DNA of 64,000 bases from Anaeromyxobacter dehalogenans 2CP-1 (GCF_000022145.1 NC_011891.1:4756501-4820500); one strand, 5' to 3'. Numbered from the stretch's first letter, positions 48,141 to 58,502 are shown. Program-made: numbers and translations. Notes: a model not told the origin generated them from the letters alone.

Positions 48141-49682
48141 TCACCCTCCGTACAACCCCCGCACCGTCTCGATCGTGTCCGCGTCCTCGGGGCGCTTGTC
48201 CTCGCGGTAGCGCTTCACGCGCGCGAAGCGGAGGGCGAGGCCGCCGGGGTAGCGCGGGCTGGACTGGATCCCGTCGAACGCGACCTCCACCACCAGCTCG
48301 GGGCGCACCGGGACCTGCCAGGCGTCGAGGGGACCCGTGGCGAGCGCCTTCAGCCGCTCGGTCTGCCACGCGAGCATGGCGTCGGTCATGCCCTTGAACG
48401 TCTTGCCGAGCATGACGAAGCCTCCGGTGGATGGGTCGCGCGCGCCGAGGTGCAGGTTGGAGAGCCAGCCGCGGCGCCGGCCGCTGCCCCACTCCGCGGC
48501 GAGCACCACCAGGTCGAGCGTGTGCGCGCGCTTCACCTTCAGCCACGCCGCGCCGCGGCGGCCGGCCTCGTAAGGCGCGTCGAGCGCCTTCGCCACCACG
48601 CCCTCCTGACCGCGGGCGAGCGCGTCCTCGAGGAACGCGCCGGCCTCGGCGGGATCGCGGGTGACGAGCCGCGGGACGCGCTGCTCCGCCGGGACGGCGC
48701 GCTCGAGCGCGGCCCAGCGCACGCGCTCCGGGCTCGCCAGCAGCTCTGCGCCGCCGGCCACCAGCGCGTCGAAGAAGAACGCGGTGAGCGGCAGATCGGG
48801 CGCGAGGCGCTCCACGTCCAGCCTCCGGCCGAAGCGGCGCATGGTGACCTGGAACGGCTCGGGCGTGCCGTCGGCGCGGAGCGCGATGGCCTCGCCGTCG
48901 AGCACGAGCCGCGGCTCGGGCGCGGCGCGCAGGAGCGCCACCACCTCGGGCACGGCCGCGGTCACGTCGCGCAGCGAGCGGGAGAACACGCGCACCTCGC
49001 CGCCGTCGCGGTGCGCCTGGATCCGCGCGCCGTCCAGCTTCCACTCCAGCGCGGCCTCGCCGCCGAGCGCCCGGAGCGCCTCCTCCACGTCCGCCGCGGT
49101 CTGCGCCAGCATGGGCGACACGGGCTCGCCCACCCGCAGCCGGAAGCGCGCCAGGCCGGCGGCGCCCTCCGAGAGCGCCGCGACCGCGACCGGCGGGAGC
49201 GCGCCGGCGAGCATGGCGGCGCGCCGGACCTCGGCCGCGGGGAGCCCCGCGGCCCGCGCCACCGCGTCGGCGAGCACGCCCTCCAGCGCGCCCTGCCGCA
49301 GCTCGCCGAGGAGGAGCGCCGCCAGGAACCAGCGCTCGGGGGCGCCGGCCCGGGCGAGCAGCGCATCGAGCTCCCGGCGACGGGCGCCGGCCGAGCCCGC
49401 GCCGGACGCGGTCGCGATGCGGCCCAGCGCCGCGTCCACCTCCGCCACCGTGAGCCCCGGCCCGCCGCCCTCCGCCGGCGCCGCGTCGAGCGCGGCCCGC
49501 ACGGTGGCGCCGCCGATCCCGATGCGCCCGCCGGGCAGGTCGCCCGCGAGCCAGCTCGCGCCCACCGCGCGCTCGTCCGGCGCGAGCCGGCGGAGCGCCT
49601 CGGCGAGGCGCGCGATCTTCTCGAGGCGCGCCGGGGTGGCGGCCACGGCGCGGGAGACCTCGGCGAGCTCGGCGAGCAGCAC
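48141..49682 (-). CDS. ATP-dependent DNA ligase
   Basis: A 513-residue ligase of the ATP-dependent (LigB/LigC-like, archaeal-type) group. The N-terminal DNA-binding domain (1-190) ends in VGEPVSPMLAQ. The nucleotidyltransferase domain has motif I with adenylated lysine K215 in EWKLDGARIQAH, motif III FFFDALV, motif IV EGVVAK and motif V WLKVKR. The OB domain includes ELVVEVAFDGIQSSPRYPGGLALRFARVKRYREDK. It seals nicks using ATP. GTG 49682 is the start, 10 bp after the hydrogenase maturation protease stop, so it appears to be the last gene of the hydrogenase transcript, an odd context. No Ku gene is adjacent. Confidence 0.92.
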   Translation of the reverse strand: MLLAELAEVSRAVAATPARLEKIARLAEALRRLAPDERAVGASWLAGDLPGGRIGIGGATVRAALDAAPAEGGGPGLTVAEVDAALGRIATASGAGSAGARRRELDALLARAGAPERWFLAALLLGELRQGALEGVLADAVARAAGLPAAEVRRAAMLAGALPPVAVAALSEGAAGLARFRLRVGEPVSPMLAQTAADVEEALRALGGEAALEWKLDGARIQAHRDGGEVRVFSRSLRDVTAAVPEVVALLRAAPEPRLVLDGEAIALRADGTPEPFQVTMRRFGRRLDVERLAPDLPLTAFFFDALVAGGAELLASPERVRWAALERAVPAEQRVPRLVTRDPAEAGAFLEDALARGQEGVVAKALDAPYEAGRRGAAWLKVKRAHTLDLVVLAAEWGSGRRRGWLSNLHLGARDPSTGGFVMLGKTFKGMTDAMLAWQTERLKALATGPLDAWQVPVRPELVVEVAFDGIQSSPRYPGGLALRFARVKRYREDKRPEDADTIETVRGLYGG

Positions 49683-49692
49683 GCCGGATCGT

Positions 49693-50214
49693 CTAACCGG
49701 CCTCCTCCGCCAGCGCGCGGGCGGCGGCGCGCGCGGCCGCCTCCACCGCCGGGACGGCCGCGGCCACCGCCGGGGTGAGCCCCTCGCCGACCTCGTCCAG
49801 GATCTCGGCCTCCACCGCGACGAGCTGGATCCGGGACGGGACCGGCGCGCCGGCGGCGCGGGCGCGGGCCACCGCGGAGGGGAGCCCGATGGCGTGCGGC
49901 GAGGGACCCCCCGGGGCGTGGATGGCCTCGAGCGGCAGCGCGTGCACGGTGCCCGGCGGCGCCGCCCCGGTCCGCACCGCGTCCACCACCACCACGCGGT
50001 CGAAGCCCTCCATGTCGTCGAGCAGGTACAGGCCGGCCTGCGCGCTGGTGCGGACCTCGACGTCCGGCTCCGGCCGAGCTGCCAGCCGCGCCGCGACGTG
50101 CAGCGCCACCGCGTCGTCGCGACGGAGCGGGTTGCCCAGGCACAGGATGAGGACCGATGCGACGGGGCGCCGCCCCGGCGGCCTCGCTGCGCTCGCTGGC
50201 CGTTCGGGGTCCAT
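49693..50214 (-). CDS. [NiFe]-hydrogenase maturation protease
   Basis: A 173-residue HycI/HoxW-family endopeptidase that trims the C-terminus of the hydrogenase large subunit after nickel insertion. LILCLGNPLRRDDAVALHVA carries the first nickel-sensing acidic residue, GFDRVVVVDAVRTGAAPPGTV the second (Asp), and HAIGLPSAVARARAAG the histidine. It starts at ATG 50214 with an unusual basic leader (MDPERPASAARPPGRRP). It lies 11 bp downstream of the large-subunit gene. The large subunit here ends DPCNACASHALPGELP followed by a further 35 residues, so a cleavable tail is possible but its cut site is not obvious. Confidence 0.87.
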   Translation of the reverse strand: MDPERPASAARPPGRRPVASVLILCLGNPLRRDDAVALHVAARLAARPEPDVEVRTSAQAGLYLLDDMEGFDRVVVVDAVRTGAAPPGTVHALPLEAIHAPGGPSPHAIGLPSAVARARAAGAPVPSRIQLVAVEAEILDEVGEGLTPAVAAAVPAVEAAARAAARALAEEAG

Positions 50215-50225
50215 GCGCGGCAGCC

Positions 50226-51710
50226 TCAGTCCACGTCCTCCGGCACGCGCCGCCGGATCACCTCGCGCACCGCGCCGTCGGCGCCGCGCACCGTGACCAC
50301 CAGCGGCAGCTCGCCGGGCAGCGCGTGCGACGCGCACGCGTTGCAGGGGTCGTACGCCCGGAACGCCATCTCCAGGCGGTTCAAGAGCGCCGCGTCCACC
50401 TTCCCGCCGCGGATGAGCCCCTTCGCCGCCTTCCGCACCGAGACCTGCACCGGCGCGGCGTTGTGCTGCGAGGCGACCACCAGGTTCGCGGCGGTGAGGA
50501 TCCCGTCGGCGTCGGCGGCGTAGTGGTGGAAGAGCGTGCCCCGCGGCGCCTCCACCGCGCCCACGCCCTCGCGCGGCCCGGGCAGCGGCGCCGGCACCTC
50601 GCGCACGTGCGGATCGCCGAGGCCCGGATCCTCCGCGAGCTGCTGCGCGGTCTCCGCCGCCTGGAGCGCCTCGACCAGCCGCGCCCAGTGGAACGCGAGC
50701 GTCTGGTGCGCCGGCCAGCCCAGCGCCTCGAACAGCCGCTGCCGCTCCGCCTCGGCGCGCGGCGTGGCCATGGCGCGGGCCACGTTGAGCCGCGCCAGCG
50801 GGCCCACGCGGTACAGGCCGGTGTCGTCGCCCTCGGTGAAGCCGGTCCAGCCCTTCGACTTCAGATACGTGAGCTTCGCGTAGGTCCAGGGCTCGACCCG
50901 CTCGGCCAGGTGGTCGAGCCAGTCGCGCGGCGCGAACGTCGCCAGCTCGCGCCCGGCGGGGTCGATCACCCGCAGCCGCCCGTCGAGGAACGCGAGCCGG
51001 CCGTCCGCGTCCACCATGCCCATCGAGTGGCAGCGCACCCGGTACGCGTCGCTGGCGAGCGCCTCCGAGTACTCCGGGTGGTCGAGCACCGCCGCGCGGA
51101 ACGAGGCGAGCGTGTCCTCGGCGAAGCGCACCAGCCCGGGCGCGAGCGCGCGGGCGCGGGCCACCGTGGCGGCGTCCACCGCCTTCGAGATGCCGCCCGG
51201 CAGCGCGAACACCGGGTGCACGGTGCGCCCGGCCAGCGCCGCCATCAGCTCGCGCGCCTCCCGCCGGGCGGAGAGGATGCGCTTGCCGAGATCCGCGCCC
51301 ACCTTCGCGAGCACGCCCAGGATGTTGCGCATGGGCGCGGGCGCGTCCGAGCCGGCGTAGAAGTCCGGGCCGCCCATGTACCAGTAGTGGAGGAGGTGAT
51401 CCTCGAAGATGAAGAGCTGGTAGTAGAGCGCGCGGGCGAGCCGGGCCGCCGGCGGCGGCTCGACGGCGTAGAGCGCGTCGAGCGCCTGCACCGCCGCGAG
51501 GTGGTGCGCCGCCGGGCAGACGCCGCACACGTGCGCGGTGAGCTGCGGCATCTCCTCGGCCGGGCGGCCCACGCAGAAGCGCTCGAAGCCGCGCAGCTCC
51601 GGCACCTGCAGGAGCGCGCTCTCCACGTCGCCGGCGTCATCGAGCAGGATCTCGATCTTCCCGTGCCCCTCGAGCCGGGTGATGGGGTCGATGGTGATCC
51701 GCCGCGTCAC
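50226..51710 (-). CDS. [NiFe]-hydrogenase large subunit (MvhA/group 3-like)
   Basis: A 494-residue catalytic subunit. It opens RITIDPITRLEGHGKIEILLDD. The two nickel-binding motifs are complete: HVCGVCPAAHH near residue 65 and DPCNACASH near the C-terminus. The overall form is that of the soluble group 3 enzymes (MvhA/F420-non-reducing type). With the fused MvhD-MvhG subunit it would oxidise or evolve H2 and pass electrons to HdrA. GTG 51710 overlaps the previous stop by 4 bp. The enzyme should be cytoplasmic because no Tat signal is present on the small subunit. Confidence 0.92.
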   Translation of the reverse strand: MTRRITIDPITRLEGHGKIEILLDDAGDVESALLQVPELRGFERFCVGRPAEEMPQLTAHVCGVCPAAHHLAAVQALDALYAVEPPPAARLARALYYQLFIFEDHLLHYWYMGGPDFYAGSDAPAPMRNILGVLAKVGADLGKRILSARREARELMAALAGRTVHPVFALPGGISKAVDAATVARARALAPGLVRFAEDTLASFRAAVLDHPEYSEALASDAYRVRCHSMGMVDADGRLAFLDGRLRVIDPAGRELATFAPRDWLDHLAERVEPWTYAKLTYLKSKGWTGFTEGDDTGLYRVGPLARLNVARAMATPRAEAERQRLFEALGWPAHQTLAFHWARLVEALQAAETAQQLAEDPGLGDPHVREVPAPLPGPREGVGAVEAPRGTLFHHYAADADGILTAANLVVASQHNAAPVQVSVRKAAKGLIRGGKVDAALLNRLEMAFRAYDPCNACASHALPGELPLVVTVRGADGAVREVIRRRVPEDVD

Positions 51711-53176
51711 GCGCCCGCCTCGCCTTCCGGTCCGGACGGCCCGGCCGGCCGCACCCGGCGCGGCAGCAGCGCCGCGGCGTAGGAGTAGCGCCAGAACGTG
51801 CCCGCCGGATCCGGCACCGCCGCGCCGAGCGCCGCCGGGTCGGCGCCGCCCAGCAGCGAGGCGAAGCCGGAGAGCATGGCCGCGCCCGCGTCGCGCACGC
51901 CGTCGAGCGGCCCGAAGCAGCCGCGGCAAGGCATCCCCGCCTCGACGCAGCCGGGCTGGCACCCCTGGCGCGTCGCCGGGCCCATGCACACGAGCCCCTG
52001 GGCGAGGAAGCACAGGTCGGGGTCCACGGCGGAGGTGGCGAGGCGGCGGAGCGCGTCGAGCGCGATGCGCTCCGGCCGCGAGCCCTTGCGCGGGCAGCCT
52101 TCGCAGAGCGAGACGTCCGGCGCGAGCACCGCGCCGCGCGGCGGCGGGGCGTCGCCGAGCAGCGCGTCGAGCGCCGCCTGCACCACCGCCGGCGAGGGCG
52201 GGCAGCCGGGGACGGTGTAGTCCACCGGCACCACGTCCGCGAGCGTGAGCGTGCGCGGCAGGAGCACCGGCAAGGAGAGCGCCGCGCCGTCCACGCGCAC
52301 CGGCCCGCCGGGCAGCGGCGCGTCCGGGTTCGCGACGCTGGGCGGCGCGCGGTAGGCGGCCTCGAGCAGCGCCTCCGGCTCGGACAGGTTCCCGAGCCCC
52401 ACCACGCCGCCCAGGTGCGCGCAGGCGCCGAACGCCACCAGCGTGCGCGCCTTGCGGCGCAGCAGGCGGGCCCAGTCCTCCTGCTCGTCGAGGCGCACCG
52501 CGCCGTTCACGAACGCGAGGTCGATCCCGCCGTCGGGCAGCGCCTCCACGTCGGCGCGCTTGTGGTCGGTCGCGACCGGCCAGAGCACCACCTCGACGCG
52601 CTCCAGCAGGCCGGCGAAGCCGTCGCCCAGGTCCACCACCGCCTCCTCGCAGCCGCCGCAGGAGGCGTTCCAGTAGAACGCGACGCGCGGCTTCCCGCCG
52701 GCGCGCGGGGAGAGCGGCGCCGGCGCGGGATCGGCGCCGGCGAGCGCGGCGCCGGCCCCGTCGAGCGCGCGCCGCGCGTAGTCGAGCGGCCCGAGCGCCC
52801 GGAGCGCCGCGGTCATCTCGCGCACCTCGCCGGCGAGCCGCTCCGCCTCGTTCGCGCCCGCCCACGTCATCCGGAAGCGCGCCGGCTCGATGCCCGCCTG
52901 CTCGAGCGCGCCCGCCAGCACCGCGCCGCGGGCCGCGGCCCGCAGGTTGCCGTCGAGGTAGTGGCAGTCGCCCGGGTGGCAGCCGGCCACCAGCACGCCG
53001 TCGGCGCCCTCGCGAAAGGCCTGGAGCACGAACGCCGGCTCCACCCGCCCGGTGCACATGACGCGCACCGTGAGCAGGCTCTGCGGCATCTCCAGGCGTT
53101 GCTGCCCGGCGCGGTCCGCGGCGGCGTACGCGCACCCGTTGCAGAGGAACGCCACGATGCGCGGCTCGTGGGCCAC
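51707..53176 (-). CDS. Fused MvhD-MvhG (electron-transfer plus small hydrogenase subunit)
   Basis: A 489-residue fusion. Residues 1-150 are MvhD/FlpD-like: IVAFLCNGCAYAAADRAG, VRVMCTGRVEPAFVLQAFREGADGVLVAGCHPGDCHYLDGN. Residues 180-489 are the small subunit MvhG. KPRVAFYWNASCGGCEEAVVD, GACAHLGGVVGLGN and YTVPGCPPSPAVVQ give the proximal cluster, and CEGCPRKGSRPE with CFLAQGLVCMGPATRQGCQPGCVEAGMPCRGCFGP gives the medial and distal clusters. In methanogens these are separate proteins. GTG 53176 has GGAGG 7 nt upstream and is favoured over GTG 53185, which overlaps the HdrA stop. Confidence 0.87.
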   Translation of the reverse strand: MAHEPRIVAFLCNGCAYAAADRAGQQRLEMPQSLLTVRVMCTGRVEPAFVLQAFREGADGVLVAGCHPGDCHYLDGNLRAAARGAVLAGALEQAGIEPARFRMTWAGANEAERLAGEVREMTAALRALGPLDYARRALDGAGAALAGADPAPAPLSPRAGGKPRVAFYWNASCGGCEEAVVDLGDGFAGLLERVEVVLWPVATDHKRADVEALPDGGIDLAFVNGAVRLDEQEDWARLLRRKARTLVAFGACAHLGGVVGLGNLSEPEALLEAAYRAPPSVANPDAPLPGGPVRVDGAALSLPVLLPRTLTLADVVPVDYTVPGCPPSPAVVQAALDALLGDAPPPRGAVLAPDVSLCEGCPRKGSRPERIALDALRRLATSAVDPDLCFLAQGLVCMGPATRQGCQPGCVEAGMPCRGCFGPLDGVRDAGAAMLSGFASLLGGADPAALGAAVPDPAGTFWRYSYAAALLPRRVRPAGPSGPEGEAGA

Positions 53177-53181
53177 CCGGC

Positions 53182-55080
53182 TCACCTCCCCGCCAGCAGC
53201 GCGGAGATCTCCGCGGCGATCTGGGCGCGGGTGAAGTGGCGGGCGCTGGCCGCGCCGGTCGGGCAGGCCGCGGCGCACGTGCCGCAGCCGCGGCAGTCCA
53301 CCGCCAGCACCGTGGCCTTTCCGTCCGCGCCGTCGATCACCATCGCGCCGAACGGGCAGGCGGCGACGCACATCCCGCAGCCGCCGCACAGCGCCGCGTC
53401 CACCTCGGCGGCGAGCGGCTCGAGCGCGCGCCGCTCCCCCGGCCGCAGCGTGGCGAGCACCTGGCCGGCCGCGGCGGCGCCGTCGCGGATGGCGTCGCGG
53501 ATGCTCCGCGGGCCGGCGGCCGCGCCGGCCACGTACACGCCGGCGGTGCGGGTGGCGGTGGGCTCGAACGGGCTCGCGCCGCCGTCGGCGAGGAAGCCGC
53601 GGCGGTCGGGCGCGAGGCGCAGCAGGGCGGCGAGCGAGGCGGCGCCGCCCGCGCCGCGCGAGGGCGCGTGGATCGCCACCAGGTCGGCCCGCCGGCGCGT
53701 GGCGCCGCCGCCGGGCTCGGCCAGCCGGACCTCGAGCGCGCCGTCCGCCGCGGCGACGCCGCCTTCGACGAGCGCGCCCGGGAGCAGCTCGACCCCCTCG
53801 CGCCGGAGCGCGGCCGCGAGGCCGACGAGCTGCGGCGCGCGATCGAGGCCGCCCGCGACGGCCACCCGCGCCGAGGGCAGCCGGGCGCGGACCCGCTGCG
53901 CGAGCTTCAGCACCTCGCGCAGCGCCAGCTCCCCGTCCGCCTCCGCCGCGCTGGTGGCGAGCAGCACCGCCTCCGGCGTCCGCCCACCCGCGCCGCGCAG
54001 CGCGCCGCCGGTGGGGCCGTCCGGGTGGAGCATCCGCTCGAGCTGCCAGGAGGACACGAGCCCCTCCGGCCCCTCCACCGCGCCGGGCTCGAGGCCGGTC
54101 GCGATCACGATCGCGCCCACCTCCACCTCGCGCGAGCGCGGGGCGTCGTCGAGGCGCACCGCGCCGAACGGGCAGGCGCCGGCGCAGGCGGCGCAGCCGG
54201 GCGGGCAGGCGGCGCGGTCCACCACCGCCGCGTGCGGCAGGCACCCTGCGTACGGCAGGTGGATGGCCTTGCGGGCCGGCTCGCCGCCGGACGGATCCGC
54301 GACCTCGACCGGGCAGGCGGCGCCGCACACCTCGGCGCAGCCCAGGCACGCGGCCGGGTCCACGTGGCGCGGCGCGACGACCAGCTCCACCGTGAACCGG
54401 CCGGCCGAGCCGCGCACGCGCCGGACCTCGGCGCCGGTGAGCACCTCGATGCGGTCCGAGTGCAGGACGCGGTCGAGCGCCGGCTCCATGAAGCAGCTCG
54501 CGCAGGCGAGCTCCGGGAACACCTCGTCGAGCCGGTTCGCGAGCCCGCCGAGCGCGTGCGCGCGCTCCACCAGCACGACCTTCCGGTCCTTCTGCGCGAG
54601 CGCCAGCGCCGCGGAGATCCCGGCCGCGCCGCCGCCCACCACCAGCGCGTCGGCGCTCACCTCGACGTCGCCCTCCGGCAGCGGGCGCTGCAGCGCCACC
54701 CGCGCCAGGCCCGCGGCCACCAGGCGCCGGGCGCGCGCGGTCACGTCCGCCGGCGCGCCGCCCAGCCACTCGGCCTGCTCGCGCAGGTTCACCATGTGGA
54801 GCTGCCAGGGCGAGCGCCCCGCGCCGGCGAGGACGCCGCGGAAGGTGTGCTCGTGCTCGCGGGGCGAGCAGGCCCCCAGCACCACGCGCTCGATCCCGCC
54901 CGCGCGGATCCGCTCGGCGAGCCACGCCTGGCCCTCCGGCGAGCAGAGCACGTCGTGGACGGCCACGTCGGCGGCGGCGGGGAACGCGCCGGGCGCGGAG
55001 AGATCCGGCAGCCGCACCGCGCGCCCGAGGTTCGGCCCGCAGCGGCAGAAGTAGAGGCCGGTCCGGCTCGGCGACGCCAT
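53182..55080 (-). CDS. hdrA: HdrA-like flavin/iron-sulfur subunit
   Basis: A 632-residue HdrA. The N-terminal cysteine pair is in LYFCRCGPNLGR. The FAD-binding Rossmann turn is ALVVGGGAAGISAALALAQKDRKVVLVER. Two inserted ferredoxin-type clusters are seen as CLGCAEVCGAACPVEV and CPPGCAACAGACPFGAV, and the C-terminal pair as CGGCGMCVAACPFGAM and CRGCGTCAAACPTGA. In methanogens HdrA bifurcates electrons from MvhADG between HdrBC and ferredoxin. Here no hdrB or hdrC lies in the window, so the acceptor is unknown. It follows tusA by 41 bp and precedes the fused hydrogenase subunit. Confidence 0.9.
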   Translation of the reverse strand: MASPSRTGLYFCRCGPNLGRAVRLPDLSAPGAFPAAADVAVHDVLCSPEGQAWLAERIRAGGIERVVLGACSPREHEHTFRGVLAGAGRSPWQLHMVNLREQAEWLGGAPADVTARARRLVAAGLARVALQRPLPEGDVEVSADALVVGGGAAGISAALALAQKDRKVVLVERAHALGGLANRLDEVFPELACASCFMEPALDRVLHSDRIEVLTGAEVRRVRGSAGRFTVELVVAPRHVDPAACLGCAEVCGAACPVEVADPSGGEPARKAIHLPYAGCLPHAAVVDRAACPPGCAACAGACPFGAVRLDDAPRSREVEVGAIVIATGLEPGAVEGPEGLVSSWQLERMLHPDGPTGGALRGAGGRTPEAVLLATSAAEADGELALREVLKLAQRVRARLPSARVAVAGGLDRAPQLVGLAAALRREGVELLPGALVEGGVAAADGALEVRLAEPGGGATRRRADLVAIHAPSRGAGGAASLAALLRLAPDRRGFLADGGASPFEPTATRTAGVYVAGAAAGPRSIRDAIRDGAAAAGQVLATLRPGERRALEPLAAEVDAALCGGCGMCVAACPFGAMVIDGADGKATVLAVDCRGCGTCAAACPTGAASARHFTRAQIAAEISALLAGR

Positions 55081-55121
55081 CGTGGTTCCCGCGGCGCGCC
55101 CCACGCAGATCGGCCGCTCTC

Positions 55122-55334
55122 TCAGTACTGTATCTGGATCACCGTCTTCACGCCGTCGCCGCGTACCGAGAGCAGCGTCTTGCGGCGGCGCTCGCAGAAG
55201 GTGCGGATGTCCTTCTCGAACGTGGGGCAATCGCCGGTGATCTCGACCATCGTGCCGGACGGCGTCTCGGCGGTCTCGACCGCCAGCTTCAACACCGGCT
55301 GCGGGCAGCGCATGCCGCTGCAGTCGATCTTCAT
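55122..55334 (-). CDS. TusA-family sulfur carrier protein
   Basis: A 70-residue protein starting MKIDCSGMRCPQPVLKLAVE, with the family C-P-x-P motif whose cysteine carries persulfide sulfur. The rest follows the two-layer TusA/SirA fold (MVEITGDCPTFEKDIRTFCERR ... KTVIQIQY). A second cysteine (DCPTF) and a third (FCERR) are present. Encoded first in the hdrA-hydrogenase operon, it could bring sulfane sulfur to HdrA. TusA genes also accompany sHdr sulfur-oxidation clusters, but the rest of such a cluster is missing here. Confidence 0.87.
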   Translation of the reverse strand: MKIDCSGMRCPQPVLKLAVETAETPSGTMVEITGDCPTFEKDIRTFCERRRKTLLSVRGDGVKTVIQIQY

Positions 55335-55439: not shown

Positions 55440-55469
55440 ACCATACCTGTCCGCTCCGCTCGACGTCAA
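55440..55469 (-). promoter_or_regulatory. Sigma-70-type promoter for tusA-hdrA-hydrogenase operon
   Basis: On the minus strand TTGACG (55464-55469) and TATGGT (55440-55445) are separated by 18 bp. This gives five of six and four of six matches to consensus and a start site near 55433, about 100 bp before tusA. It is the best promoter pair seen in the window. No -24/-12 (sigma-54) pair was found here. Confidence 0.6.
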
Positions 55470-55585: not shown

Positions 55586-56044
55586 TCAGTACTTCGCGTC
55601 CTCCGCCTCGATGAGGCGGTAGATCTCGGCCGCGTCGGGCGCCTTCATGATCGCCTCGCGGAAGGCCGGGTTCTTGAAGATCCGGCTGATCCGGGCGAGC
55701 GCCTTGAGGTGCGTGCCGGCCGAGTTCTCGGGGGCGAACAGCGCGAAGAACAGGTGGGTGGGCTTGCCGTCGATGGCGCGGAAGTCCACGCCGCCGGCGG
55801 ATCGGCCGAAGCTCGCCATCAGGCCGGGCAGGCCTGGGACCTTGCCGTGCGGGATGGCCACGCCCTCGCCGATGCCGGTCGAGCCGAGCTTCTCGCGATC
55901 GAGCAGCGTCTCGACCAGCCGCTGCCCGTCGACCTTCTGGCTGGCGGCGAGCGGACGGACCAGCTCGGCCAGCACGGCGGGCGCCGCCTGCCCGGAGAGG
56001 CTGGCGATCACGGCGTCGGACCGGAGGAACTCGACGATCTTCAT
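55586..56044 (-). CDS. ptsN: PTS EIIA-type nitrogen regulatory protein
   Basis: A 152-residue EIIA(Ntr)-type protein. LLDREKLGSTGIGEGVAIPHGKVPGL holds the phospho-accepting histidine in the I-P-H motif. KPTHLFFALFAPENSAGTHLKALARISRIF is the conserved second block. It is phosphorylated by the PTS(Ntr) chain and usually regulates K+ transport, kinases or sigma-54-linked functions by contact. Location downstream of rpoN and hpf is the conserved proteobacterial order. No npr or rapZ gene follows here. Confidence 0.92.
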   Translation of the reverse strand: MKIVEFLRSDAVIASLSGQAAPAVLAELVRPLAASQKVDGQRLVETLLDREKLGSTGIGEGVAIPHGKVPGLPGLMASFGRSAGGVDFRAIDGKPTHLFFALFAPENSAGTHLKALARISRIFKNPAFREAIMKAPDAAEIYRLIEAEDAKY

Positions 56045-56177
56045 GGCGGACCGGCGTCAGCTAACACAGGTGGCAACGTGTGGGCAAGAAGGCAAGGCGA
56101 GGGGCCGGCGGGTCGCGCGGGGGACGCCGCGACGGGCGGGACGCGGCGCCCCGGGACGCCGCGCCCCACCGCCGGGA

Positions 56178-56732
56178 TCAGGCCGGGTGCGCCTCGATGA
56201 GGCCGACGTTCCCGTCGTCGCGCCGGTACACCACGTTGATGCTCCGGTCCTCCGCGTTCTGGAACACGTAGAAGTGCGCGTCGAGGAGGTCGAGCTGGAG
56301 GATCGCCTCGTCGAGCGACATGGGCTTCGCCTGGAACTCGGTGCTCTTGATCACCTTGTGGCTGGGGCGCGACGAGTCCTCGAGGATCCCGAGCACGTCG
56401 TGGCGCACGTCCACCGGCGGCTGCTCCGGCGCCGCGGGGGCGGCCTTGTGGTTCTGGAGCTTCTCCTTGTGCTTCTTCAGCTGCCGCTCGATCTTGTCCG
56501 CGGCCGCGTCGATCGACGCGTACATGTCCCCGGTCTTGGCGGTGCCGCGCAGCAGGAACCGCCCCGCCTTCACGGTCAGCTCGGCGTGGTGCTTCAGGTT
56601 CTCCAGGTGGAGGACCGCGTACGCCTCGGTCGGGCGGTCGATGTACTTCTGCACGCGCTCGACGCGATCGCGGACGTGGGCCTTGAGGGCTTCGGTGGGA
56701 TCCAGATGCCGGAAGGTGATGTTCACCTGCAT
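56178..56732 (-). CDS. hpf: Ribosome hibernation promoting factor, long form
   Basis: A 184-residue long-type HPF. The N-terminal S30AE domain (MQVNITFRHLDPTEALKAHVRDRVERVQKYI ... ELTVKAGRFLLRGTAKTGDMYASIDAAADKIERQLKKHKEKLQ) binds the 30S decoding region. A Pro/Ala linker leads to the C-terminal dimerisation domain (VIKSTEFQAKPMSLDEAILQLDLLDAHFYVFQNAEDRSINVVYRRDDGNVGLIEA), which pairs ribosomes into 100S dimers. AGGAGG precedes ATG 56732. It lies between rpoN and ptsN. Confidence 0.94.
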   Translation of the reverse strand: MQVNITFRHLDPTEALKAHVRDRVERVQKYIDRPTEAYAVLHLENLKHHAELTVKAGRFLLRGTAKTGDMYASIDAAADKIERQLKKHKEKLQNHKAAPAAPEQPPVDVRHDVLGILEDSSRPSHKVIKSTEFQAKPMSLDEAILQLDLLDAHFYVFQNAEDRSINVVYRRDDGNVGLIEAHPA

Positions 56733-56843
56733 GAACCGCCTCCTTGGGAGGACCGCAAATGCTTCGGCCGCGGTCCGGCGGGTTCTGTGTCCCGTCGGTG
56801 CCGCGGCCGCGAATGCTGCCGGAGCTGGCAACATGTCGAGGTC

Positions 56844-56849
56844 ATAATA
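56844..56849 (-). promoter_or_regulatory. Possible -10 element for hpf
   Basis: TATTAT on the minus strand, in an otherwise very G+C-rich 264-bp spacer between rpoN and hpf, is a strong -10 match. No good -35 lies 16-18 bp upstream. It would give a leader of about 105 bases. It suggests that hpf and ptsN can be transcribed separately from rpoN. Confidence 0.4.
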
Positions 56850-56996
56850 CCCCAGGGCCGCCGCGATCGATCTCCGCGATCGCCCTCGCCCCGGGCCTGA
56901 CGGGGCCTCGGCGCTCCCGCGATCGGGCGCCCGGCCGGCCTCCGCGGGCCGGGTCGCCCCGCCGCCCGTCGCCGGATCCCGGGACGCCGTCCGCGG

Positions 56997-58502
56997 CTAG
57001 AAGTACTTCTTGCGCTTCGAGCTGGGCAGGATCCCCAGCACCTCGCGGTACTTCGCGACGGTGCGGCGGGCGATCTCGATGTTCTGGCCCTTCAGGAGCT
57101 CGACGATCTTCTGGTCGGAGTGCGGGTGCTTCGGGTCCTCGGCCGCGACGATCTGGCGGATGTGGTTCTTCACCGCCTCGCTCGCGATCTCGTCGCCGCC
57201 GGTCTTCTGGATCGCCGAGTTGAAGAAGAACTTCAGCTCGTAGATGCCCTGCGGCGTGTGGACGTACTTGTTCGTGGTGACGCGCGAGACGGTGGACTCG
57301 TGCATCCCGATGTCCTCGGCCACGTCTCGCAGGATGAGCGGCTTCAGGTGGGCGATCCCCTTGTCGAGGAAGTCGCGCTGGAACTTCACGATCGACTCGG
57401 TGACCTTGTAGATGGTCCGCTGCCGCTGGTGGATGGACCGGATGAGCCACACCGCGCTGCGCAGCTTCTCCTGGATGTACTCCTTGGCCTTGCCCGCCTC
57501 GCCGTTCTTGAGCGCGGCGCGGTACATGCCGGAGATGCGCAGCTTCGAGAGGCCGTCGTCGTTGAGGACGGTGACGTACTTGTCGCCCATCTTGTGGACG
57601 TAGACGTCGGGGGTGATGTACTGCGCCTCCTCGCCGGAGTAGGCGCGGCCCGGCTTCGGCTCGAGGCGGCTGATCACCTTCACCGCCTTCACCACCTCCT
57701 CGATGGGAACCTTCAGGTCCTTGGCGATGGCCTGGTAGTTCTTCGACTCGAGGTGCTTCAGGTGGCGCTCGATGATCGCGACGATCTCGGGCGTGTCGGC
57801 GTTGATCGCGACCACCTGGATCAGCAGGCACTCGCGCAGGTCGCGGGCGGCGACGCCGATCGGGTCGAAGGTCTGCACCTTCCGCAGCACCCGCTCGGCG
57901 ACCTCGATGCCCTGCCCCGACTCGAACGCCACCCGCACCAGCGGATCGCGCGAGGTGGCCTCGTCGGCCTCGCCCTCCACCGCCGGCATCTTGAAGTAGC
58001 CGTCGTCGTCGAGGTTCCCGATGATGAGCATCGCGACCTGCTCCTCGTCGGGCGTGAAGTTCGAGAGGCGCAGCTGCCACACCAGGTGGTCGACGAGGTC
58101 GGTCTTCTTGGTGAGCGTGGCCTCGTAGCCGGGCAGCTCCTCGTCGGAGAGGCCGCGGTTGGAGGGCGCGGTGTGGCCCTGGAGCTGGTACTGGTCGAGG
58201 TACTGGTCCCAGTCGATCTCGTTCGCGCCCTCCTCGCCCTTCACCTCCTCGGCCTTTTCCGCCTCCTTGTGCTCGGGCTTCGCCTCGATCTCGGCCTGCT
58301 CGGCGGGGCTGGCGCCGTCGGGCACCGCCTGCTCGTCGTTCTCGTCCGCCCCCTCCAGCATGGGGTTCTCGGTCATCTCGGTGCGGATGAGATCGACCAG
58401 CTCCATGCGCGAGAGCTGCAGGAGCTTGATGGCCTGCTGCAGCTGGGGCGTCATCACCAGCTGCTGGGTCATCTTGAGGTGCTGCTTCAGCTCGAGGCTC
58501 AT
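56997..58502 (-). CDS. rpoN: RNA polymerase sigma-54 factor
   Basis: A 501-residue sigma-54. Region I is glutamine/leucine-rich ([39 protein letters not shown]). An acidic region II covers about 50-110. The core-binding domain and the helix-turn-helix ([37 protein letters not shown]) follow. The RpoN box is [16 protein letters not shown] near the C-terminus. It directs transcription from -24/-12 promoters with enhancer-binding ATPases, important in myxobacteria. The ATG overlaps the lptB stop by 4 bp, the conserved lptB-rpoN linkage. Confidence 0.96.

Follow-up and report, generated by a model that had tools for sequence, protein, structure and literature searches.

What accepts the electrons of a hydrogenase-fed HdrA when its usual partners HdrB and HdrC are absent? 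The question is raised by a 64,000-nucleotide stretch from the genome of the soil bacterium Anaeromyxobacter dehalogenans 2CP-1 (NC_011891.1:4756501-4820500, hereafter the window), in which HdrA and an Mvh-type [NiFe] hydrogenase are encoded together with a TusA-family protein. Several bacteria have HdrA modules without HdrBC, and for most of these no electron acceptor is known. We found that here the missing HdrBC coincides with loss of the matching HdrA cluster and with the arrival of a sulfur carrier encoded alongside, which leads to a concrete proposal for the acceptor. Judged from sequence, TusA-borne sulfane sulfur may have replaced the heterodisulfide as the oxidant at the HdrA flavin of this Mvh-type hydrogenase, a reading to which we give somewhat less than an even chance.

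Four genes are found where a first-pass annotation had placed them, on the minus strand; a fifth, the maturation protease gene, was absent from its list:

55122-55334, minus strand: tusA, a 70-residue TusA-family protein (Pfam TusA, 4.4e-17; alignment of 8 homologs)
53182-55080, minus strand: hdrA, 632 residues, with flavin adenine dinucleotide (FAD), N-terminal cluster, inserted and C-terminal ferredoxin domains and no HA4 cysteine motif
51707-53185, minus strand: mvhD-mvhG fusion, 492 residues, a single open frame (Pfam FlpD and Oxidored_q6; solved-structure matches)
50226-51710, minus strand: mvhA, [NiFe] hydrogenase large subunit (Pfam NiFeSe_Hases, 1.5e-30; VhuA model, 9e-98, below the model cut-off)
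49693-50214, minus strand: HycI-type hydrogenase maturation protease, encoded at the end of the cluster (TIGR00072, 3.6e-35; syntenic in relatives)

The GTG start of mvhD-mvhG overlaps the hdrA stop, the GTG start of mvhA overlaps the stop of the fusion, and 41 nt separate tusA from hdrA. The five genes presumably form one operon with tusA first, and seven further Anaeromyxobacter-type genomes share this arrangement.

Iron-sulfur clusters and flavin site of HdrA

The window HdrA matches solved HdrA chains along its full length (E 5e-101) and aligns with methanogen HdrA. An alignment-based AlphaFold2 model (predicted local distance difference test score, pLDDT, 86; predicted template modeling score 0.79) replaced a single-sequence model with a pLDDT of 39 and gave template modeling scores of 0.77-0.81 to the best-fitting solved HdrA entries. 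In HdrA, the N-terminal domain has one iron-sulfur cluster, the thioredoxin-reductase domain binds FAD and one cluster, and the inserted and C-terminal ferredoxin domains carry two clusters each (PMC12054007). Five of these six ligand sets are present in the window protein, with 20 cysteines intact (4 N-terminal, 8 in the inserted and 8 in the C-terminal ferredoxin domain). The sixth is gone: a shorter cysteine-free loop replaces the motif C-x-GSRD...YCSxxCC, and the absent residues are equivalent to Cys386, Cys399, Cys403 and Cys404 of Methanothermococcus HdrA (5odc_A; numbering counted along the alignment with this chain). The complement of FAD and six [4Fe-4S] clusters that includes HA4 is thus incomplete.

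HA4 sits between FAD and CoM-S-S-CoB, while HA3 is the C-terminal shuttle cluster (PMC12350162). Since the missing cysteines are the sole set left for the thioredoxin-reductase domain, the lost cluster would, by elimination, be HA4, through which the flavin passes electrons on to HdrC and HdrB. This assignment also agrees with the one reportedly made by Wagner et al. 2017.

Alignment of 84 full-length HdrA proteins revealed a clear division: all four cysteines occur in 73 of them and none in the other 11, which are exactly the TusA-linked clade with the MvhD-MvhG fusion. In a quick tree with flagged long branches, the Shimodaira-Hasegawa-like approximate likelihood ratio test (SH-aLRT) gave 100 both for the motif-less clade and for the whole HdrA lineage. 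A pattern-based scan of the fetched neighbourhoods, some of which end at contig ends, detected a CCG gene for 57 of the 73 motif-bearing proteins and for none of the 11 motif-less ones; the associated Fisher's exact P-value (7e-7) is not a fair measure, as the 11 proteins form one clade and represent effectively one evolutionary event. Two members of the clade also lack one inserted-ferredoxin cysteine each (the HdrA proteins of genomes G041 and G019). Because the motif-less proteins coincide exactly with the TusA-linked fusion clade, loss of HdrBC appears to be built into HdrA itself. The absence from HdrA of the cysteine ligands for the cluster between FAD and HdrC was not foreseen in the first-pass annotation. 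Such a natural HA4 deletion provides a way to examine how HdrA bifurcates.

The annotation did report that hdrB and hdrC were missing, and this holds on a genome-wide scale. Neither gene is in the operon. When the complete genome (a single contig of 5,029,329 bases) was searched with family models, TIGR03288 (HdrB) gave 0 matches and all TIGR03290 (HdrC) matches were below the cut-off (at most 27.9 bits against 160); the CCG-domain HdrB and the HdrC of an MvhADG-HdrABC complex were thus found in neither operon nor genome. Six CCG-domain genes do exist in the genome, and conventional HdrBC-type chemistry could in principle be supplied by one of their unlinked products. In length and neighbours, the products resemble GlcF, LutA, a membrane Fe-S oxidoreductase, a GlpC-like protein and FAD-linked oxidases, and as HdrB candidates they were unconvincing by length, by neighbours and by the HdrB model. 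Moreover, an HdrA without the cysteines of the cluster that would connect it to HdrC implies that HdrBC cannot simply be encoded elsewhere in the usual way. We consider this explanation highly improbable.

In Methanothermococcus thermolithotrophicus HdrA, two residues that stabilise the flavin, E356 and K409, have been put forward as indicators of a bifurcating enzyme (PMC12054007). Their counterparts in the window protein are E356 and K400, and among the motif-less HdrA E356 is kept in 11 of 11 and K400 in 10 of 11. The exit to HdrBC is lost, yet the flavin site still looks bifurcating. The idea of a bifurcating or confurcating enzyme, put forward in the first-pass annotation, therefore stands only in part: E356 and K400 fit a bifurcating flavin, whereas the canonical high-potential exit is gone with the HA4 cysteines.

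Another conserved cysteine pair, Cys201-x-x-Cys204, begins the helix that follows the FAD-binding GG in the AlphaFold2 model, and a role as a thiol relay near the flavin is plausible. One solved archaeal HdrA has a non-standard residue, printed X, at the second of these positions, which would fit selenocysteine. C201 and C204 were also considered as ligands of the missing cluster and rejected, as they vary independently of the four-cysteine motif across the 84 HdrA. Comparison of a FAD-region profile with solved structures gave lipoamide dehydrogenase matches that end before C201/C204, and a placement of the pair on the redox disulfide of that enzyme was not obtained.

TusA and the electron acceptor

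The window TusA has the CPxP motif of its family, with the catalytic Cys10 in C-P-Q-P (C-P-H-P in two homologs) invariant among 8 homologs. Two further cysteines, C36 (in GDC) and C47 (in FC), are invariant in the same set; Escherichia coli TusA has equivalents of the first and the last cysteine and is without C36. One of two other TusA-family genes in the genome clearly lacks C36 as well.

The TusA subfamily is present in 17 of 195 Myxococcota genomes, and 15 of these 17 also carry an HdrA of the window lineage (the other two are G052 and G017). Outside Myxococcota, strong matches were found in 2 of 34 genomes with Mvh-type modules, a WOR-3 bacterium and the metagenome-assembled GMC4, which are also the only two of the 34 with an HdrA inside the window lineage (SH-aLRT 100, long branches flagged). 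Gene order varies: tusA-hdrA-DG in eight Anaeromyxobacter-type genomes and in G053, hdrA-tusA-DG in G041 and G019, mvhD-hdrA-tusA in G014, and tusA-mvhD-hdrA-like genes in the two unrelated bacterial genomes WOR-3 and GMC4. Thus, the association of TusA with the HdrA-hydrogenase module, first noted in the window, recurs across genomes and gene orders. The G014, WOR-3 and GMC4 clusters retain the HA4 cysteines, which suggests, given the quick tree, that TusA joined this HdrA lineage before HA4 was lost. The TusA-linked HdrA lineage includes a cultured genus.

Several of these loci have a distinctive context. The G014 cluster (L182:5475-8132) has no adjoining hydrogenase; two radical-SAM-like and two SPFH-like genes precede it and a STAS/RsbT-like regulatory set follows. 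In WOR-3 (L191:2963-14692, G195), tusA, mvhD, hdrA parts, two FrhB-like genes and mvhD are followed by hdrA-mvhDGA. GMC4 (L190:1487-11546, G196) has the same series from tusA to the second mvhD, with hdrC-hdrB-hdrA directly upstream of tusA. TusA is found beside STAS/RsbT-like regulators, with no HdrA alongside, in G188 (L183:4187-7443) and in G017 (L184:4186-6199), in the latter also next to a DsrE-like gene.

At the level of sequence, the electron path runs complete from the [NiFe] site through three [4Fe-4S] clusters of MvhG, the [2Fe-2S] cluster of MvhD and the N- and C-terminal clusters of HdrA to FAD, and from there to the clusters of the inserted ferredoxin domain. HA4, HdrC and HdrB are missing from it, leaving no route to HdrBC. 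We propose that a cytoplasmic Mvh-type [NiFe] hydrogenase feeds an HdrA no longer connected to the heterodisulfide branch and coupled instead to a TusA of its own. Electrons from H2 would reduce the HdrA FAD and would still reach ferredoxin at low potential by way of the inserted ferredoxin domain; the high-potential partner would be TusA sulfane sulfur, in persulfide or disulfide form, taking up electrons close to or directly at the flavin, with Cys201-x-x-Cys204 as a possible intermediate. H2 electrons would be bifurcated to ferredoxin and TusA-sulfur with release of sulfide, or the process would run in reverse. Full description as an H2:TusA-sulfur oxidoreductase bifurcating to ferredoxin, with HA4 loss as the structural mark of an acceptor switch, is tentative.

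A number of observations weigh against this proposal. The operon has no sulfur-metabolism gene other than tusA, and both the contact between TusA and HdrA and the persulfide cargo of TusA are presumed. The coupling of HA4 loss to TusA amounts to effectively one event, seen in 11 motif-less proteins of a single clade, and the assignment of the four cysteines to HA4 depends on elimination and on what the 2017 structure paper reportedly shows. In G014, WOR-3 and GMC4, TusA accompanies an HdrA with its HA4 cysteines present, and the hdrC-hdrB-hdrA genes directly beside tusA in GMC4 indicate that TusA is not everywhere tied to absence of HdrBC. The subfamily also occurs away from HdrA (in G017 beside the DsrE-like gene, in G052, and in G188, where TusA and the lineage HdrA are on different contigs). 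Finally, the motif-less HdrA of G041 has Glu in place of K400.

Some of the same observations suit the main rival, a plain non-bifurcating oxidoreductase between H2 and ferredoxin or another low-potential acceptor, with HdrA as an electron bridge and TusA as an accessory protein with a part in cluster assembly, cofactor sulfuration or regulation. The intact inserted and C-terminal ferredoxin domains, the loss of the high-potential branch (HA4 and HdrBC), the status of tusA as the operon's sole sulfur-metabolism gene and the occurrence of the TusA subfamily at loci without HdrA, next to regulators or to a DsrE-like gene, all fit such an enzyme. It does not account well for the almost perfect retention of the E356/K400 bifurcation markers, or for a tight, reordered TusA-HdrA linkage in several groups that exceeds what is expected of a general maturation factor, in a genome with two other TusA-family genes. 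We regard it as possible, though doubtful.

Flavin enzymes of the Hdr type can in principle work in both directions, and the system could act as an electron valve that oxidises TusA-bound sulfur or a dithiol together with reduced ferredoxin to form H2 (confurcation). A precedent is the sulfur-oxidising Hdr-like (sHdr) pathway, in which an HdrA-like protein and sulfur-transfer proteins cooperate (PMC6067878). The sHdr pathway (structure 6tjr) thus shares with the window an HdrA-type flavoprotein tied to sulfur transfer, but its HdrA-like protein is a 349-residue chain without a hydrogenase, whereas the window HdrA keeps the extra ferredoxin and N-terminal domains. No other part of that pathway is in the operon: HdrB- and HdrC-type partners are missing from the genome by the model searches above, and the lipoate-binding protein LbpA (PMC6067878) is absent from the operon, the genome not having been searched for it. 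We consider operation in this reverse direction quite unlikely.

The hydrogenase and the MvhD-MvhG fusion

The hydrogenase has all the parts expected of MvhADG: an [NiFe] large subunit, a three-cluster small subunit and a [2Fe-2S] MvhD. The metal ligands of MvhA are complete (CGVC...DPCNAC). VhuA is its best NCBIfam model, under the cut-off, and group 3c is a candidate placement. Among solved structures, the NiFe hydrogenase large subunit 7t2r is the closest single match, followed by the NAD-reducing 5xf9 and then by Mvh.

MvhD and MvhG form one chain, given as 489 residues in the first-pass annotation and 492 here. Residues 10-132 match FlpD/MvhD (Pfam, 2.7e-46) and 176-341 the hydrogenase small subunit; against solved chains, 7-137 align with MvhD and 165-482 with MvhG, end to end. 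An alignment of eight homologs shows no variation at any of the 17 cluster cysteines, of which 5 belong to MvhD and 12 to MvhG. A sequencing error joining two genes, the alternative raised by the annotation, is excluded by conservation of the in-frame fusion in at least 11 genomes. Within the genus, 8 of 9 genomes carry it unbroken, and the remaining one is only 66% complete; beyond the genus it occurs, always in frame, in other genera of the same family and, from a different class, in genome G019. D and G are separate in the related loci of the remaining Myxococcota and in 80 loci from many phyla, with a few loci unresolved. Selenocysteine in MvhDG was rejected as well, as internal-TGA flags in two genomes proved to be terminal stops; no frameshift was found either. 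The fusion per se is probably mechanistically minor, since the joined subunits are already in series along the electron path.

Known relatives and surroundings of the operon

The window system shares MvhA, MvhG, MvhD and HdrA homologs, the FAD domain and the N-terminal, inserted and C-terminal cluster ligands with the methanogen MvhADG-HdrABC complex (5odc, 9sw2); it differs in having no HdrB, HdrC or HA4 ligands, in the fused MvhD-MvhG and in the added TusA. Because HA4 and HdrBC are both lacking, we do not count it as a member of that complex type, though it is clearly derived from the same type of machine.

HdrA with an Mvh-type hydrogenase and with no hdrBC named in the same operon is already known. 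The glpC-hdrA-frhD-frhG-frhA selenoprotein operons of Syntrophobacter and Desulfotalea combine HdrA with a complete Mvh-type hydrogenase and no named hdrBC, but have a GlpC Fe-S oxidoreductase, selenocysteine, separate D and G, and no reported TusA (PMC1794560). In the deltaproteobacterium (in the broad sense) Desulfobacterium autotrophicum, hdrA1-mvhA2DG likewise places HdrA next to a cytoplasmic Mvh hydrogenase, with selenoproteins, separate subunits and HysAB instead of TusA alongside (PMC2702500). An MvhD-containing fusion is also shared with the HdrA2-type system, in which MvhD is fused to HdrA, rather than to MvhG, and HdrB2C2 is present (PMC5296606). In the literature searched, which did not cover the review of HdrA(BC) modules by Appel et al. 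2021, we found no description of the association with TusA, of the loss of HA4 or of the joining of D to G.

A putative promoter lies ahead of the operon:

55440-55469, minus strand: sigma-70-like site TTGACG-18-TATGGT, about 105 bp upstream of tusA

It is the sole promoter-like site in the 8.4 kb from 47.8 to 56.2 kb, where shuffles expect 0.0; it was not found in the genomes of more distant relatives and is present in the two closest ones. Directly upstream of tusA (55586-58502, minus strand) are ptsN (IIA), a ribosome hibernation factor gene and rpoN, and directly downstream of the protease gene (48141-49682, minus strand) is a gene for an ATP-dependent DNA ligase.

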